In this document: positions 8,809 through 30,483 of the stretch, piece after piece | Position numbering within the stretch: the first letter of the stretch is position 1 | Layout of the letters: each line of letters begins with the position of its first letter | Source: a bacterium | GTDB lineage: Bacteria > Cyanobacteriota > Vampirovibrionia > Gastranaerophilales > Gastranaerophilaceae | Direction: 5' to 3' | Assembly (NCBI GenBank): GCA_017544545.1 | Contig: JAFYDY010000007.1 | Coordinates: 1 to 36,551 of the forward strand | Length of the DNA stretch: 36,551 bases | Notes under the pieces: model-generated | The model's input: only the letters and a program-made list of their open reading frames with translations | The model's database searches: none | What the model was told of the DNA's origin: nothing | Position numbers and translations under genes: made by a program

Positions 8809-8838
8809 TTGCATAAATCAAATTTTCTATGCTATAAT
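8809..8838 (+). promoter_or_regulatory. Promoter for plus-strand small RNA (module at 8.9 kb)
   Basis: TTGCAT at 8809-8814, an 18-base spacer and TATAAT at 8833-8838 with an extended TGC. It fires toward the end of the peptide gene at 8941-9126. A second candidate (TTGTAA, 17, TATAAT at 8936-8941) lies too close to the terminator to make a useful RNA. Confidence 0.7.
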
Positions 8839-8844
8839 ATCCAC

Positions 8845-8979
8845 ATAACAAAAAAGAGAGCTTTCGCTCTCTTAACAGCAGTCCGCTTTAAAGGCGGCGG
8901 CTTGCAACTTAATTGTAATTATAAATGTTTTACGATATAATTACCGTTGCTTACCTCTGCGAAAGGTGCAACGGTTTTT
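8845..8979 (+). ncRNA. Candidate antitoxin RNA convergent with the 8.9-kb peptide gene
   Basis: Predicted from a strong promoter (8809-8838) and an intrinsic terminator on the plus strand (CCGTTGC 8944-8950, GCAACGG 8968-8974, then five T). The RNA, about 135 nt, overlaps the last 39 bases of the opposing peptide gene, so it can pair with the 3' end of that mRNA as RatA does with TxpA or SR4 with BsrG. It contains GCGGCGGCTTGC at 8894-8905, whose reverse complement lies at 9156-9167 in the leader of the peptide gene. No experimental support; the layout is the evidence. Confidence 0.55.
8850..8873 (-). terminator. Intrinsic terminator for minus-strand transcription
   Basis: AAGAGAGC and GCTCTCTT form a perfect 8-bp stem with a four-base loop, followed by six T on the minus strand. 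A peptide mRNA ending here would include the 3' partner (8894-8905) of its own 5' leader repeat. Confidence 0.85.
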
Positions 8980-9126
8980 GTTTGTTTTTTTCGCTTTCAA
9001 TTCACTCATTTTTTGATTGAATTTGTAATCAAAAAACCAGTTTTGAAAACTAATAAACAGACCAAAAACATTGGCCGTTAATACAATGACTTCAAGGATT
9101 TCCTTGAGGTCTTTTTGTATTACCAT
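8941..9126 (-). CDS. Small membrane peptide, candidate type I toxin
   Basis: A 61-residue peptide from ATG 9126, preceded by GGGGGC; a longer frame to 9159 would start inside the leader hairpin. Residues about 10-32 (LEVIVLTANVFGLFISFQNW) form one membrane helix, and the tail is very basic (KAKKTNKNRCTFRRGKQR), like TxpA/BsrG-class or holin-like toxins. In the mRNA leader CCCC at 9148-9151 pairs with GGGG at 9135-9139, hiding the ribosome binding site. The last 12 codons are encoded by the terminator hairpin of the opposing RNA. A TATAAT with extended TGA lies at 9196-9201. It could instead be a small phage membrane protein with no toxin role. Confidence 0.55.
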   Translation of the reverse strand: MVIQKDLKEILEVIVLTANVFGLFISFQNWFFDYKFNQKMSELKAKKTNKNRCTFRRGKQR

Positions 9127-9195
9127 ACGCTTCGCCCCCTTTCTATTGGGGTTTAGCAAGCCGCCGCTGTCCTTTATCGCAAATGCTGTAAGTTT

Positions 9196-9204
9196 ATTAT
9201 ATCA
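9196..9204 (-). promoter_or_regulatory. Extended -10 promoter of the 8.9-kb peptide gene
   Basis: Minus strand reads TGATATAAT, an extended -10 element, with no good -35. Transcription would start near 9189 and include the 12-base leader repeat at 9156-9167. Confidence 0.55.
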
Positions 9205-14490: not shown

Positions 14491-14916
14491 TTATAAATTT
14501 GTCTTGCTAGCATCCTCTAATATTCTTTGTTTAATTTCCTGATTTTTTATTTTGCTTAGCAAGTTTATTGCTCCTGAATAGTGATGTTTCACCGCAGTCA
14601 CAATTGCGGCCCATCCATATTCATCTTTATTTTTGACATCTGTGCATTTTTCGAGTATCGTAGCCATTGCTTTTTTGTTGTAAAATTGCGCTGCATATCT
14701 AAGAGCACCCCTTCCATCTTTATCCTTAGCGCCAATATCGGCGCCGTTTTGAATTAGCATTTTGATTGCTTCTGCATTGCAGCCTGGTGCTGCATATATG
14801 AGCGCAGTACATCCTTTTTCGTCTCTAAATTCAACATCTGCGCCATTTTCTATTAGCTTTTTGATTTCGTCTGCATTGTTGAATTTTGCTGCCCATATAA
14901 GTTCGTTTTTGTCCAT
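14491..14916 (-). CDS. Ankyrin-repeat protein
   Basis: A 141-residue protein with about four ankyrin repeats: an opening ELIWAAKFNNADEIKKLIEN, then GADVEFRDEKGCTALIYAA, GADIGAKDKDGRGALRYAA and DVKNKDEYGWAAIVTA. No signal peptide or catalytic domain. Ankyrin proteins act by binding other proteins; a phage copy in the early operon between ERF and SSB could counter host defence or modify a host partner, as proposed for some 'ankyphages', but nothing here names a target. A possible cargo gene: it abuts the long inverted repeat. Confidence 0.85.
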   Translation of the reverse strand: MDKNELIWAAKFNNADEIKKLIENGADVEFRDEKGCTALIYAAPGCNAEAIKMLIQNGADIGAKDKDGRGALRYAAQFYNKKAMATILEKCTDVKNKDEYGWAAIVTAVKHHYSGAINLLSKIKNQEIKQRILEDASKTNL

Positions 14917-20797: not shown

Positions 20798-21178
20798 ATG
20801 TTATTTGTATATCCAGCAATATTTCATAAAGAAAATGGTTCTTATTGGGTTGAATTCCCAGACTTACAAGGATGTCAAACGTATGGCAATACGATTAACG
20901 AGACAATAAATTATGCACAAGAGGCTTTGGAATCATATATAAGCTCGATGTTAGAGCAAAATTTAACTTTACCAGTGCCATCTGATATTACACTTATAAA
21001 AGTTGATGATGGTTTTACTTCCCTTGTTTCGTGTAATATAAATCAATATAAAGCCACAAAGGCAGTGAAAAAAACATTAACAATCCCTATGTGGCTAAAT
21101 GAACAAGCAAATGATTTAGGCTTAAATTTTTCTCAAGTTTTGCAGGATGCACTTTTAACTAAAATACAAGCCAAATAA
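20798..21178 (+). CDS. hicB: HicB antitoxin
   Basis: A 126-residue protein with AGGGAGG upstream. The N-terminal RNase H-like partial fold is clear (FHKENGSYWVEFPDLQGCQT, then TINETINYAQEALESYI), and the C-terminus, LTIPMWLNEQANDLGLNFSQ, is a ribbon-helix-helix-type DNA-binding domain. It neutralises HicA and represses the promoter at 20541-20570. It ends one base before the stop of the convergent amidase gene, so no terminator separates the two; antisense readthrough between lysis and addiction genes is possible. Confidence 0.92.
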   Translation: MLFVYPAIFHKENGSYWVEFPDLQGCQTYGNTINETINYAQEALESYISSMLEQNLTLPVPSDITLIKVDDGFTSLVSCNINQYKATKAVKKTLTIPMWLNEQANDLGLNFSQVLQDALLTKIQAK

Positions 21179-21954: not shown

Positions 21955-21993
21955 CAAAAATAGCCACCAAGTTTTGTCTTGGTAGCTATTTTC
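21955..21993. terminator. Bidirectional terminator upstream of the endolysin
   Basis: AATAGCCACCAAG and CTTGGTAGCTATT make a 13-bp stem with one G-U pair, flanked by A- and T-runs so it can act on both strands. It separates the endolysin from the toxin-like module at 22.1 kb. Confidence 0.85.
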
Positions 21994-22006
21994 GTTTGTG
22001 TTATAC

Positions 22007-22035
22007 TTGACGTATATTTTTTTTCGTGGTAACAT
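22007..22035 (+). promoter_or_regulatory. Promoter of candidate antitoxin RNA, module at 22.1 kb
   Basis: TTGACG (22007-22012), 17-base spacer, TAACAT (22030-22035). The same arrangement with the same -35 recurs at 24838-24866, marking a duplicated module. Confidence 0.75.
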
Positions 22036-22041
22036 ATAAAT

Positions 22042-22130
22042 ATATCGGGTATTGCTAATAGACGGCTACCCTGGAAAAGTCTTAACTATATAATAGTCGC
22101 ACATTTCGAGAGTTGGGCGACTATTTTTTT
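22042..22130 (+). ncRNA. Candidate antitoxin RNA, module at 22.1 kb
   Basis: Predicted RNA of about 90 nt, from the promoter at 22007-22035 to the terminator AATAGTCGC (22092-22100) / GCGACTATT (22117-22125) plus seven T. Its 3' end overlaps the stop codon and 3' end of the opposing 32-codon gene. It includes AATAGACGGCTACC, a near-repeat of AATTAGTCGCCTACC at 22247-22260 in the leader of the opposing gene, so it could also pair with that leader imperfectly. Its start GGGTATTGCTAATA mirrors TATTACAATACCC at 22264-22276. Confidence 0.6.
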
Positions 22131-22219
22131 ATGCTCAAAAATAAAATAACAACTGCGAAAGTAAGAATGATACCTAGCAATAAAGCGAGGATAATTATTA
22201 CTGCAATTAGATATTCCAT
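22121..22219 (-). CDS. 32-residue hydrophobic peptide, candidate type I toxin
   Basis: The peptide begins MEYLIAVIIILALLLGIILT, ends FLSIKK and is a single long membrane helix with a basic end. GGGGGG lies seven bases before the ATG. In the leader CCTCCC (22240-22245) pairs with that GGGGGG (22227-22232) across a seven-base loop, hiding it, and GGCGACTA of the leader (22249-22256) is perfectly complementary to TAGTCGCC at the 3' end of the same mRNA (22116-22123). Such 5'/3' locking and hidden ribosome sites are hallmarks of type I toxin mRNAs. A paralogue lies at 24955-25023. Confidence 0.65.
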   Translation of the reverse strand: MEYLIAVIIILALLLGIILTFAVVILFLSIKK

Positions 22220-22285
22220 AAGCACGCCCCCCTTCACCAGGGAGGAATTAGTCGCCTACCATTTATTACAATACCCTTAACGTTT

Positions 22286-22294
22286 ATTATAGCA
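22286..22294 (-). promoter_or_regulatory. Extended -10 promoter of the 32-residue peptide gene
   Basis: Minus strand TGCTATAAT without a clear -35. The same extended -10 occurs before the paralogue near 25120. Upstream lie two copies of AGGTATACAATTTT (see 22309-22344). Confidence 0.6.
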
Positions 22295-22308
22295 TCTTTA
22301 CTTGCTCA

Positions 22309-22344
22309 AGGTATACAATTTTAACGTGTCAGGTATACAATTTT
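22309..22344. repeat. 14-bp direct repeats 22 bp apart upstream of the peptide promoter
   Basis: AGGTATACAATTTT at 22309-22322 and 22331-22344, in phase with two helical turns, located between the RibB-like gene and the peptide promoter. They look like tandem protein-binding sites; each contains the palindrome GTATAC. Confidence 0.6.
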
Positions 22345-22352
22345 TTCACCGA

Positions 22353-22970
22353 TTAAAACGGAATCCCAGTGCTATCAATAACATATTTTTTGAGTTCATC
22401 AATGCTAAATAGCTTATAATTTTTATCTTTATTCCATGCTTGCCATTCTTTCACGGTAAGCATTTTATTTTCATCAAGTAAAATTTCACATATAACGGAC
22501 ACTTTTTTTAGATTAGCAAGGCGGCAAAGTTCAATGCTTGCCTCTGTATGTCCATATCTTTCTAGCAATCCACCATCTTTAGCAATTAAGCCAAAACAAT
22601 GTCCGGGGCGTGTAAAATCTGTTGCCAAAGCATTTTCATCGCAAACTTTTAAAATTGTTTCGCTGCGTTCCTTTGATGAGATACCAGTATTGCACCATTT
22701 ACCGTCAAAGCTAACTGTAAAATTTGTGAGCCGTTTGTCTTCATTATGTTCAACCATATAGCCCAAATTTAATTTCTGCGCGTATTCACTGGACATTGGC
22801 GTACATATTAGCCCAGAGCCCAAACGAGCCATGTCGTAAATCTTTTTAGGTGTGATAAATTGCGCAGCAGTGCAAAAATCAATTTCGTTTTCTTGCTTTT
22901 CATTGTCTGCAAGGCAAATAACTTCACCGTTTGCCATTGCTTTTATTGCCTCTTCAATTTTGCCAAACAT
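22353..22970 (-). CDS. ribB: RibB-like 3,4-dihydroxy-2-butanone-4-phosphate synthase
   Basis: A 205-residue enzyme from ATG 22970 (AAAGGATG six bases upstream). It aligns along its whole length with RibB, which converts ribulose 5-phosphate to formate and DHBP, the four-carbon precursor of riboflavin. Kept: QENEID, GSGLIC, RPGH, YGHTEA with the metal-binding His, and CEILL with the later Glu. Changed: the Arg before ENE in the usual RENEGD is Gln, the Gly is Ile, and GTGFTV is LTNFTV. It lies in the late operon between a tail fibre and a toxin-like locus, so it is cargo. It may be an active auxiliary enzyme or one with altered chemistry. Confidence 0.88.
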   Translation of the reverse strand: MFGKIEEAIKAMANGEVICLADNEKQENEIDFCTAAQFITPKKIYDMARLGSGLICTPMSSEYAQKLNLGYMVEHNEDKRLTNFTVSFDGKWCNTGISSKERSETILKVCDENALATDFTRPGHCFGLIAKDGGLLERYGHTEASIELCRLANLKKVSVICEILLDENKMLTVKEWQAWNKDKNYKLFSIDELKKYVIDSTGIPF

Positions 22971-22997
22971 AATTTTCATCCTTTCAAAATTAAAATT

Positions 22998-24725: not shown

Positions 24726-24771
24726 AAAAAAAATACTCATCAAACCCGCAATATAATTGGGTTTCATGAGT
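24726..24771 (-). terminator. Intrinsic terminator after the 24.9-kb module
   Basis: Minus strand ACTCATGAAACCC / GGGTTTGATGAGT with an 11-base loop and eight T. It stands between the holin and the fibre genes. TTTGACATTT occurs twice just downstream, possible -35 elements without clear -10 partners. Confidence 0.88.
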
Positions 24772-24837
24772 AAAAAATAGGGCAATAATCTATTCGTCAA
24801 AGAGTGGATTAAAGAATAATTATTTGAATTTTTCCCC

Positions 24838-24866
24838 TTGACGTATTTTTTTTTATGTGTTAGCAT
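24838..24866 (+). promoter_or_regulatory. Promoter of candidate antitoxin RNA, module at 24.9 kb
   Basis: TTGACG (24838-24843), 17-base spacer, TAGCAT (24861-24866), then ATAAATATAT exactly as in the 22.0-kb copy. Confidence 0.7.
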
Positions 24867-24872
24867 ATAAAT

Positions 24873-24964
24873 ATATGACAGGTATCGTTAATAGACGGTT
24901 GCCAAAAGGTTAAGTTAAATGTTTATTATAACCGCACTCTTTAGGCTGGGGCGGTTATTTTTTT
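24873..24964 (+). ncRNA. Candidate antitoxin RNA, module at 24.9 kb
   Basis: About 90 nt, from the promoter at 24838-24866 to the terminator TAACCGC (24929-24935) / GCGGTTA (24951-24957) plus a T-run. It is convergent with and overlaps the 3' end of the 22-codon gene. Its start, CAGGTATCGTTAATA, mirrors the opposing leader (TATTAAATGTCGATACCTG at 25066-25084), as in the 22.1-kb copy. The stem sequences differ from that copy but keep pairing, which supports a functional hairpin. Confidence 0.6.
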
Positions 24965-25023
24965 ATGCTTACAATGATAAAAAGAATCAGCATTAACAAG
25001 CTAATGATGAAATCCTTATCCAT
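24955..25023 (-). CDS. 22-residue hydrophobic peptide, candidate type I toxin
   Basis: The peptide begins MDKDFIISLLMLILFIIVSI and ends with KK; like its 22.1-kb paralogue it ends SIKK. AGAGG lies eight bases upstream of the ATG. The leader hairpin CACTCTCT/AGAGGGTG (25042-25049 with 25029-25036, one G-U) hides the ribosome site, and leader GGCGGTT (25051-25057) is perfectly complementary to AACCGCC near the mRNA 3' end (24950-24956). The stop codon lies in the shared terminator. Promoter TGCTATAAT is at the end of the holin gene, about 25121-25129. Confidence 0.62.
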   Translation of the reverse strand: MDKDFIISLLMLILFIIVSIKK

Positions 25024-25134
25024 AGCATCACCCTCTTTCACAGAGAGTGCAACCGCCTAACCATTTATTAAATGTCGATACCTGCCATAAGGGTTTGAGA
25101 AATTTCTCTACCCCGAAAAATTATAGCACAAAAA

Positions 25135-29479: not shown

Positions 29480-30463
29480 TTAATTTGTCGCGCCAAAATC
29501 AGAGCGGTATAAATCAAGCGTCATTGTATATTCGTTATTACTAAATTCGTGCTTGGCTTTTTCAATAAGCATGTAGCCATTTAAAATAATATCGCCCAAA
29601 TTTAATTGAGTATAAACAGAGCTTCCAGCCCGCGCGCGTATATCACCAAAAATATCTTTTACGGATAGAGTACGGGATGGCTGATTATACAGAGAAAGCA
29701 TTGCTTGAGCTTTTGCTTTAGCGTTTTCGTTCGTATTTAGCTTTTCTGTAAGCTGCAAAATTCCCCATTTGCTAATTGCGCTAACATCTTGTTCAATGGT
29801 GAATTGGCGCTTGTTTGTGTCTTTGTCATCAATATAAAGTTGGATTCTGTTATAGGTTTTGTCGTCGATTGATGTTTTGTAATCAAAGTTTTGAGCTGAG
29901 ATATCGCTTATTATAAAGCTTTTGTCGATTAACATTTCGTTAATGTTTTTTAACGTTAAAGAGCCGAAGTCATCATACAAAACATAAAGCTTATTTGTGT
30001 TCAAAAGCGTGTCGTTAAGCGCGTTTTGGATTATGTCAAAGAGCGTTGAATTGTCTTCGATTTTGGCGGGTATTTTATAACTTGTATTTTGCAGTTGCCC
30101 CGTTTTCAATAAAAAATCGCTGGCAATCATGCCAACGACTTCATTCGCTGTTTTATTTTCATATGTGTAAGTGTGTTTGTTTTTGAGATATCGCAACTGA
30201 TCATACGCAGTAACTTGTATATGATGCTCTTTATCTCTCGATTTTGAAAATACATAGCCAAAGAAAACGTTTTGGTTATCGTATTTAAAAATAACGCTGC
30301 TGCCCTCGTTAAAGTCTATTTGCGAATCCTTAACGATTGTAAAAGTTAGCTTTCCGGCAACACCTTTTCTTTCTGTTTGCCAAACGATTTCATCTTTGAT
30401 TATTGGCGCGTATGTCTTTTTGTTGACATTGTTGTAAATATATAACTCGATTTTATTTCCCAT
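29480..30463 (-). CDS. Baseplate hub protein (XkdQ/YqbQ-like)
   Basis: About 327 residues from ATG 30463 (GGCGG upstream). It has a beta-rich N-terminus (KDEIVWQTERKGVAGKLTFT), YGYVF-like VFFGYVFSKSRD, then IIQNALNDTLLNTNKLYVLY and a C-terminal LGDIILNGYMLIEKAKHEFS. This matches the PF24032/XkdQ hub that sits at the tail tip like T4 gp27. Upstream is the par-like module. Confidence 0.88.
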   Translation of the reverse strand: MGNKIELYIYNNVNKKTYAPIIKDEIVWQTERKGVAGKLTFTIVKDSQIDFNEGSSVIFKYDNQNVFFGYVFSKSRDKEHHIQVTAYDQLRYLKNKHTYTYENKTANEVVGMIASDFLLKTGQLQNTSYKIPAKIEDNSTLFDIIQNALNDTLLNTNKLYVLYDDFGSLTLKNINEMLIDKSFIISDISAQNFDYKTSIDDKTYNRIQLYIDDKDTNKRQFTIEQDVSAISKWGILQLTEKLNTNENAKAKAQAMLSLYNQPSRTLSVKDIFGDIRARAGSSVYTQLNLGDIILNGYMLIEKAKHEFSNNEYTMTLDLYRSDFGATN

Positions 30464-30483
30464 CGTTTGCACCGCCTTTTTTG

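Follow-up and report, generated by a model that had tools for sequence, protein, structure and literature searches.

Two putative type I toxin-antitoxin modules with a BsrG/SR4-like RNA plan on a phage-plasmid

Two places in one genome carry short sequences that can pair across a small open reading frame (ORF), and the bases that pair differ between them. What keeps such pairing in place, and does each copy act apart from the other? Both questions arise from a first-pass annotation of the window (the whole stretch of DNA analysed here, 36,551 nucleotides of contig JAFYDY010000007.1, from a Gastranaerophilaceae assembly), which described a paralogous pair of modules, read the maintained pairing as selection on RNA structure and suggested that the two copies do not neutralise each other. 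Here, we analysed both copies together with their homologues, and we consider it very probable that both loci are type I toxin-antitoxin modules which follow the RNA plan of BsrG/SR4, reside on a phage-plasmid and would serve as independent addiction locks.

Known best from Bacillus, the BsrG-type RNA plan would in this case occur beyond that genus, on phages and phage-plasmids and with peptides down to 22 aa. Such modules are invisible to protein family libraries and lie under the Rfam cut-off. The seven natural variants with covarying helices suffice to test which helix governs translation and which antitoxin specificity, and they allow asking whether duplicated type I modules diverge through selection against cross-neutralisation.

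Both copies are located in the late region of a phage-plasmid

The window is a single circular element, with 141 identical bases at both ends. It carries a Rep3 replication initiator gene beside 22-bp iterons, together with myovirus genes (terminase, portal, major head, tail sheath, tape measure, holin and amidase), and its tail sheath shows 54% identity to that of C. difficile phage phiC2. Its sequence identifies it as a phage-plasmid. The element sits within a 1.09-Mb assembly of 66% completeness, and its presumed host is the one given by binning alone. Copies 1 and 2 both lie in the late region, on the strand shared with the lysis genes; copy 2 is flanked by the holin gene and a gene of the tail-fibre region, copy 1 by a DHBP-synthase gene and the amidase gene. 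The holin belongs to Pfam Phage_holin_1 (E 1.5e-23) and is separate from the module peptides.

Several other features of the window were recorded. Through the DHBP-synthase (RibB-like) gene (22353-22979), the lysis region of the phage includes an enzyme of the riboflavin pathway, and the position of this gene just upstream of the amidase region is kept in three related phages (the window, L003 and L061). A HicB-like antitoxin ORF (20798-21178, plus strand) lies near the Rep3 gene, a GP20-b cis-regulatory RNA (RF03003; 3457-3515, minus strand; above the gathering score at 41.3 bits) in the cluster of head genes, and a gene for an ankyrin-repeat protein (14491-14916, minus strand) in the early region.

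Layout of the two copies

Copy 2 (24726-25129) is a complete type I toxin-antitoxin-like module, and the design of copy 1 (21956-22293) is the same, but its peptide differs (Table 1). The elements listed in the first-pass annotation were recovered: TTGACG (24838-24843), the extended -10 TGCTATAAT, the motif ATAAATATAT (24867-24876), the leader hairpin, the SIKK ending of the 22-codon ORF, and the stem GGCGGTT (25057-25051) opposite AACCGCC, for which copy 1 has the differing pair GGCGACTA opposite TAGTCGCC. We refine this description by assigning the minus strand to the peptide gene and the plus strand to the antisense RNA. The 5'/3' pairing was also present, but had been understated: in addition to the stem already described (inner helix H2) there is an outer helix, H1, formed by AGGTATCG and CGATACCT, and an alternative inner helix, H3, formed by AGGCGGTTG and CAACCGTCT. 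The motif ATAAATATAT belongs to the antisense promoter region; it is altered in one homologous module (C9a) and absent from another (G424), and thus is not universal. The antisense terminator U-tract, read as its reverse complement, gives the codons of the SIKK ending and stop (ATA AAA AAA TAA), so this ending is dual-coded and its conservation is common to two functions.

Table 1. Positions of the features of copies 1 and 2 in the window.
Feature	Position	Strand	Remark
Copy 2 toxin-like peptide ORF, MDKDFIISLLMLILFIIVSIKK, 22 aa, hydrophobic	24955-25023	-	third-codon-position bias among homologues; 13/22 residues invariant over 5 modules
Copy 2 toxin promoter, extended -10 TGCTATAAT	25120-25128	-	kept in L003; inferred promoter
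Copy 2 H1 5' arm AGGTATCG in toxin leader	25076-25083	-	partner 24880-24887 in 7/7 modules; compensatory changes in 5/8 pairs
Copy 2 H1 3' arm CGATACCT, reverse complement of antisense RNA 5' end	24880-24887	-	
Copy 2 leader segment AGGCGGTTG, 5' arm of H2 and of alternative H3	25050-25058	-	predicted partner either 24950-24956 or 24893-24901
Copy 2 H2 3' arm AACCGCC, overlaps stop codon; also antisense terminator arm	24950-24956	-	
Copy 2 H3 3' arm CAACCGTCT	24893-24901	-	
Copy 2 leader hairpin CACTCTCTGTGAAAGAGGGTG, sequesters Shine-Dalgarno	25029-25049	-	predicted fold
Copy 2 antisense (antitoxin) RNA promoter TTGACG-17-TAGCAT	24838-24866	+	varying but kept in 6/7 modules; different promoter in G424
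Copy 2 antisense RNA, ~90 nt	24873-24964	+	start inferred 7 nt past -10; end = terminator
Copy 2 antisense terminator AACCGC...GCGGTT-ATTTTTTT	24930-24964	+	
Copy 2 distal intrinsic terminator, beyond antisense promoter; inferred 3' end of long toxin mRNA	24726-24771	-	-15.8 kcal/mol
Copy 1 toxin-like peptide ORF, MEYLIAVIIILALLLGIILTFAVVILFLSIKK, 32 aa	22121-22219	-	relative MEYLLAIIAALALILGIFVCIALAVALVIFCIKK in Clostridia MAG
Copy 1 H1 5' arm GGGTATTG	22269-22276	-	partner CAATACCC at 22047-22054
Copy 1 H2 5' arm GGCGACTA	22249-22256	-	partner TAGTCGCC at 22116-22123
Copy 1 antisense promoter (TTGACG-17-TAACAT) and RNA	22007-22130	+	terminator 22094-22130
Copy 1 distal toxin-strand terminator	21956-21988	-	-14.6 kcal/mol

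On the minus strand, positions 8831-9203 of the window hold a third module which shares the design of copies 1 and 2 and is unrelated to them in sequence. Its ORF (61 aa) begins MVIQKDLKEILEVIVLTANVFGLFISFQNWFFDYKFNQ; its leader AGCGGCGGCTTGC (9168-9156) shows 12-nt complementarity to 8894-8905, with an outer ACAGCA/TGCTGT. A Shine-Dalgarno (SD) hairpin is present, a terminator (8850-8871) follows immediately after the 3' arm, and the antisense promoter and terminator lie at 8831-8838 and 8944-8980, respectively. The peptide has no family match, and a search for its relatives returned none.

Homologous modules and conservation of the peptide ORF

Seven intact modules were found across four elements, five of them beyond the window: two are in the window, two in the related viral contig L003, one in G424 (a second viral contig, 36 kb) and two in a contig of an uncultured Clostridia MAG (CAMTJU010000009.1). 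The relatives in G424 and in the MAG were found by a pattern combining the leader and stop-codon blocks, which also returned chance matches. In the MAG, the two modules lie on either side of an antisense-only remnant and are bracketed by a holin and an amidase gene, both with homologues in the window, and a decayed module copy occurs at another site, among chromosomal-type genes. Antisense-RNA-only remnants devoid of a toxin ORF adjoin intact modules in L084 (G423:C9, ~56202-56345) and L087 (G424:C1, ~30350-30480); they are possibly decayed copies, or RNAs neutralising the toxin of a relative.

Patterns made of the promoter block and a short antisense part, run against viral and genome contigs, matched L003 only; a leader pattern gave, besides L003, 15 matches inside coding genes, by chance, and a mismatch search across 46 same-genus genomes gave chance matches only. 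A generic scan detected no module in the relatives of the holin (apparently streptococcal phages) and in the phage-like contigs L058-L060, blastn of the modules against phages and plasmids gave no convincing match, and among 295 relatives of the Clostridia MAG there were zero additional copies.

When the toxin ORFs of the homologues were compared, nucleotide differences were found mainly at third codon positions. Together with the 13 invariant residues of the 22-aa peptides (Table 1), this bias indicates that the ORF is real; at the level of sequence, it shows a short hydrophobic ORF under purifying selection. No family of Pfam, PHROGs or NCBIfam matches the module peptides, and 22 aa is too short a length to exclude homology to BsrG/TxpA or BsrE/BsrH.

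Predicted long-range pairing in the toxin messenger shows covariation

The covariation test proposed in the first-pass annotation was run on the seven intact modules and not on the two copies only. Some of these modules are orthologous, so independent changes are few, with about five independent versions of H1. All cells of H1 were paired (100%, 8/8 pairs in 7/7 modules), and two-sided changes, including G-C/A-U and U-A/C-G, were seen in 5/8 pairs. The inner helix H2, that is the GGCGGTT/AACCGCC stem, was also 100% paired, with two-sided changes in 2/7 pairs, and the alternative helix H3 reached 98.4%. The leader hairpin was 78.6% paired and aligned less well, hence it provides weaker evidence. 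The covariation score was matched by none of 500 shuffles, and control structures slid along the alignment were only 35-55% paired. Cognate arms of the five distinct H1 versions form 39 of 40 Watson-Crick pairs, which is the top result among 120 arm permutations (mean 29.8). We also compared the complementarity between the leader and the distal 3' segment with that of dinucleotide-shuffled leaders, and in each of the seven modules 0 of 300 shuffles were as good.

Paired positions that vary independently, which would have contradicted the idea of RNA selection, did not occur, as H1 and H2 are unbroken in every intact homologue. The covariation of these helices, with its shuffle and slide controls, thus supports the reading of the kept pairing as selection on RNA structure; at the level of aligned sequences, the evidence for H1 is solid, that for H2 supportive. 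The two-copy stem on which this reading was originally built does keep its pairing, but taken alone it is partly weak evidence, because AACCGCC is also one side of the antisense terminator stem, whose self-complementarity is required regardless. Inside the leader arm, the unpaired insertions ACAU and AAUGGUU are conserved while the neighbouring helices covary.

Predicted transcript ends would allow a closed messenger

The 3' arm of H1 is located where the antisense gene starts, past the inner terminator; the toxin mRNA therefore contains this arm only if it is transcribed through the antisense gene. In 7/7 modules a strong toxin-strand intrinsic terminator is located just beyond the antisense promoter and the 3' arm. 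On the toxin strand of the window, where terminators occur at a density of 0.85 per kb, that of copy 2 (24735) is the strongest of 31 and that of copy 1 (21962) is among the strongest. In predicted folds of the long transcripts H1 forms with a probability of ~1.0 in 7/7 modules, with H2 or H3 within it. An inner hairpin with a toxin-strand U-run is present in three modules (L3_c1, C9a and G424), whose sequence suggests that they may also make a short messenger devoid of the H1 3' arm; two forms are plausible there. The number of promoter-like sites is not above expectation (17 observed, 15.7 in shuffles), and these sites count as evidence because they are conserved among the modules. The predicted antisense RNA has its own promoter and terminator and overlaps the toxin mRNA.

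The two copies are predicted not to cross-neutralise

The gain from binding of antisense RNA to the full-length mRNA was calculated with RNAcofold. In the window it amounted to -98 and -91 kcal/mol for the cognate pairs, as compared to -4.1 and -6.7 kcal/mol for the non-cognate ones. This contrast repeats in the two other two-module elements; over all modules, the gain ranged from -84 to -110 kcal/mol for cognate pairs and from -2 to -7 kcal/mol between two modules of one element. Predicted thermodynamics thus supports the suggestion that the copies are not cross-neutralising. Cross-binding of the copy 2 orthologues from the two phages would reach only about -35 kcal/mol.

The copy 2 modules of the window and L003 are 96-100% identical in the leader and antisense 5' end, and 68% over the U-tract, terminator and linker. 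The diverged region matches the recognition loops of BsrG/SR4, in which binding begins at the terminator loop (PMC6562991); it is equally possible that its divergence is due to relaxed constraint. Copy 1 (21956-22310) shares its locus with L003 5208-5500: the chassis, including the leader and antisense promoter, is 84-93% identical, the hairpin and ORF 34%, and the peptides are of EYL type in the window and of NENF type in L003. Dissimilar peptides on a shared chassis look like toxin exchange, which has been reported at the BsrG/BsrE-H loci (PMC6562991). We may tentatively suppose that one RNA chassis (leader, antisense 5' end and promoters) is reused while the toxin and recognition segment are swapped or diverge fast, that phage-plasmids stack orthogonal locks in this way and escape curing by the antitoxin of a relative, and that the antisense RNA, which starts with a copy of the leader, displaces the leader from the 3' arm. 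Hints toward such reuse are the contrasts in identity given above and the antisense-only remnants beside intact modules.

Proposed mechanism and alternative explanations

Besides the ORF under purifying selection and the predicted orthogonality of the two copies, sequence and computation show that the promoters are convergent and conserved, that the antisense RNA ends inside the last codons of the ORF, and that the messenger can be closed via covarying 5'/3' helices around the Shine-Dalgarno hairpin. We propose that the messenger, when it runs its full length of ~325-390 nt to the terminator past the antisense promoter, would be closed to translation. The antisense RNA would begin with ~30 nt that are a same-sense repeat of the toxin leader; it would pair with the 3' half of the messenger and compete with the leader for the 3' arm, and the duplex would be sent to decay, probably by RNase III, a fate to which a BsrG/SR4-type antitoxin directs its toxin mRNA (PMC6562991). 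Once the phage-plasmid is lost, the short-lived antisense RNA would be gone, the leftover messenger would be opened or trimmed, and the freed membrane peptide would harm the cell, so that plasmid-bearing cells would persist. Two copies with different recognition sequences would be independent locks. Toxicity of the peptide is assumed by analogy, and addiction seems the most likely function since prophage type I modules in C. difficile aid the maintenance of mobile elements (PMC7699646).

The same peptide could instead be a holin-like lysis accessory of the phage, silenced by the antisense RNA until late transcription, with no addiction module involved. Phage-borne modules do occur in the lysis/tail-fibre region, on the same strand and directly beside a holin or amidase gene in the window, L003 and the MAG prophage, and the peptide is one hydrophobic segment. 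However, the phage encodes a holin elsewhere, every module starts from a promoter of its own and is cut off from the next gene by a strong terminator, and tandem copies with antisense-only remnants, as well as a decayed copy among chromosomal-type genes, are expected of selfish modules; we therefore find a lysis role unlikely.

As to the pairing, it could reflect DNA and not RNA, as it would if the module were a small mobile element bounded by terminal inverted repeats, or if quasi-palindrome repair kept the arms alike. The arms do flank the module as an inverted repeat in the DNA, tandem modules and modules at several sites exist, and template switching can produce apparent compensatory changes. 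Yet arm-wide copying would erase the conserved unpaired ACAU and AAUGGUU of the leader arm, H2 joins the leader to a different internal site and covaries as well, and a fixed transposase is not expected to tolerate copy-specific arm sequences, all of which makes a DNA-level cause improbable. That selection acts on the antisense terminator alone, with the leader copy of the stem being coincidental, would fit the position of AACCGCC in a necessarily self-complementary hairpin; the present results disfavour this, and it is very improbable given that the leader copy tracks the same changes in every module and that H1, which covaries most, lies outside the terminator. The candidate considered first was a module of the Fst/par type, in which direct repeats pair the antisense RNA with the toxin leader, and the convergent genes and promoters, the shared bidirectional hairpin, the Shine-Dalgarno hairpin and the plasmid or phage home do resemble par of pAD1 (PMC7472228). 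It was rejected by the direct-repeat test in 7/7 modules, where complementarity between the leader and the antitoxin 5' end was no better than in shuffles (33 to 230 of 300 as good). Moreover, the repeats are inverted and not direct, and the module peptides gave no Pfam match to the Fst/Ldr toxin motif (Fst_toxin), so an Fst/par-type module can hardly be credited.

Comparison with known type I systems

As type I toxin-antitoxin modules, the two loci can be set beside several described systems. The antisense RNAs of hok/Sok and AapA/IsoA act near the 5' end of the toxin mRNA, unlike that of the modules, whose gene lies over the 3' end of the ORF and the 3' UTR and which would target the messenger in its 3' half, together with the 3' arm that the long-distance helix has there. 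A closed full-length mRNA, with 5'/3' pairing and a local hairpin sequestering the Shine-Dalgarno, is common to both (PMC6733600). Prophage modules of C. difficile (CD0977.1-RCd11 and others) are similar in that one prophage carries several type I modules with membrane peptides and a maintenance role (PMC7699646); the duplicated pair RCd11/RCd12, however, cross-reacts, whereas the window copies are predicted not to.

With BsrG/SR4 (as well as TxpA/RatA and BsrE/SR5) the modules share convergent genes overlapping at their 3' ends, a prophage home, and a short membrane peptide whose Lys-rich tail is encoded by the antisense terminator U-tract. The toxin mRNA is also alike, as it has a Shine-Dalgarno hairpin, a 5'/3' main helix, a leader that pairs with post-stop and distal 3' segments, and a distal terminator. 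In bsrG of SPbeta, which served as a yardstick, parts of the leader are complementary to ACTCAAGGGA after the stop codon and also to CTTGCTC and CTGTACA in a distal segment, after which the terminator follows. The modules differ in their peptides (22 or 32-34 aa, with no family match), in the presence of 2 or 3 orthogonal copies per phage, and in the antisense RNA, which is ~90 nt long and begins at the mimic of the toxin leader; SR4 has a length of 180 nt.

The Rfam BsrG family (RF01412), whose consensus includes leader-to-stop-codon pairing, a Shine-Dalgarno hairpin and an A-tract like those of the modules, matches 4/4 DKDF-type modules at the correct position (29.7, 27.1, 23.8 and 23.7 bits; E 0.0016 to 0.073) and scores 15.6 bits on copy 1 (E 1.3). 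Even the best of these values is below the gathering score of 55 bits, and for this reason we do not file the modules as formal members of the family. They probably work like BsrG/SR4 and share ancestry with it at the RNA level. In our view, their peptide families are new and their RNA plan, of the BsrG/SR4 type, is a known one, used in a stack of orthogonal copies.
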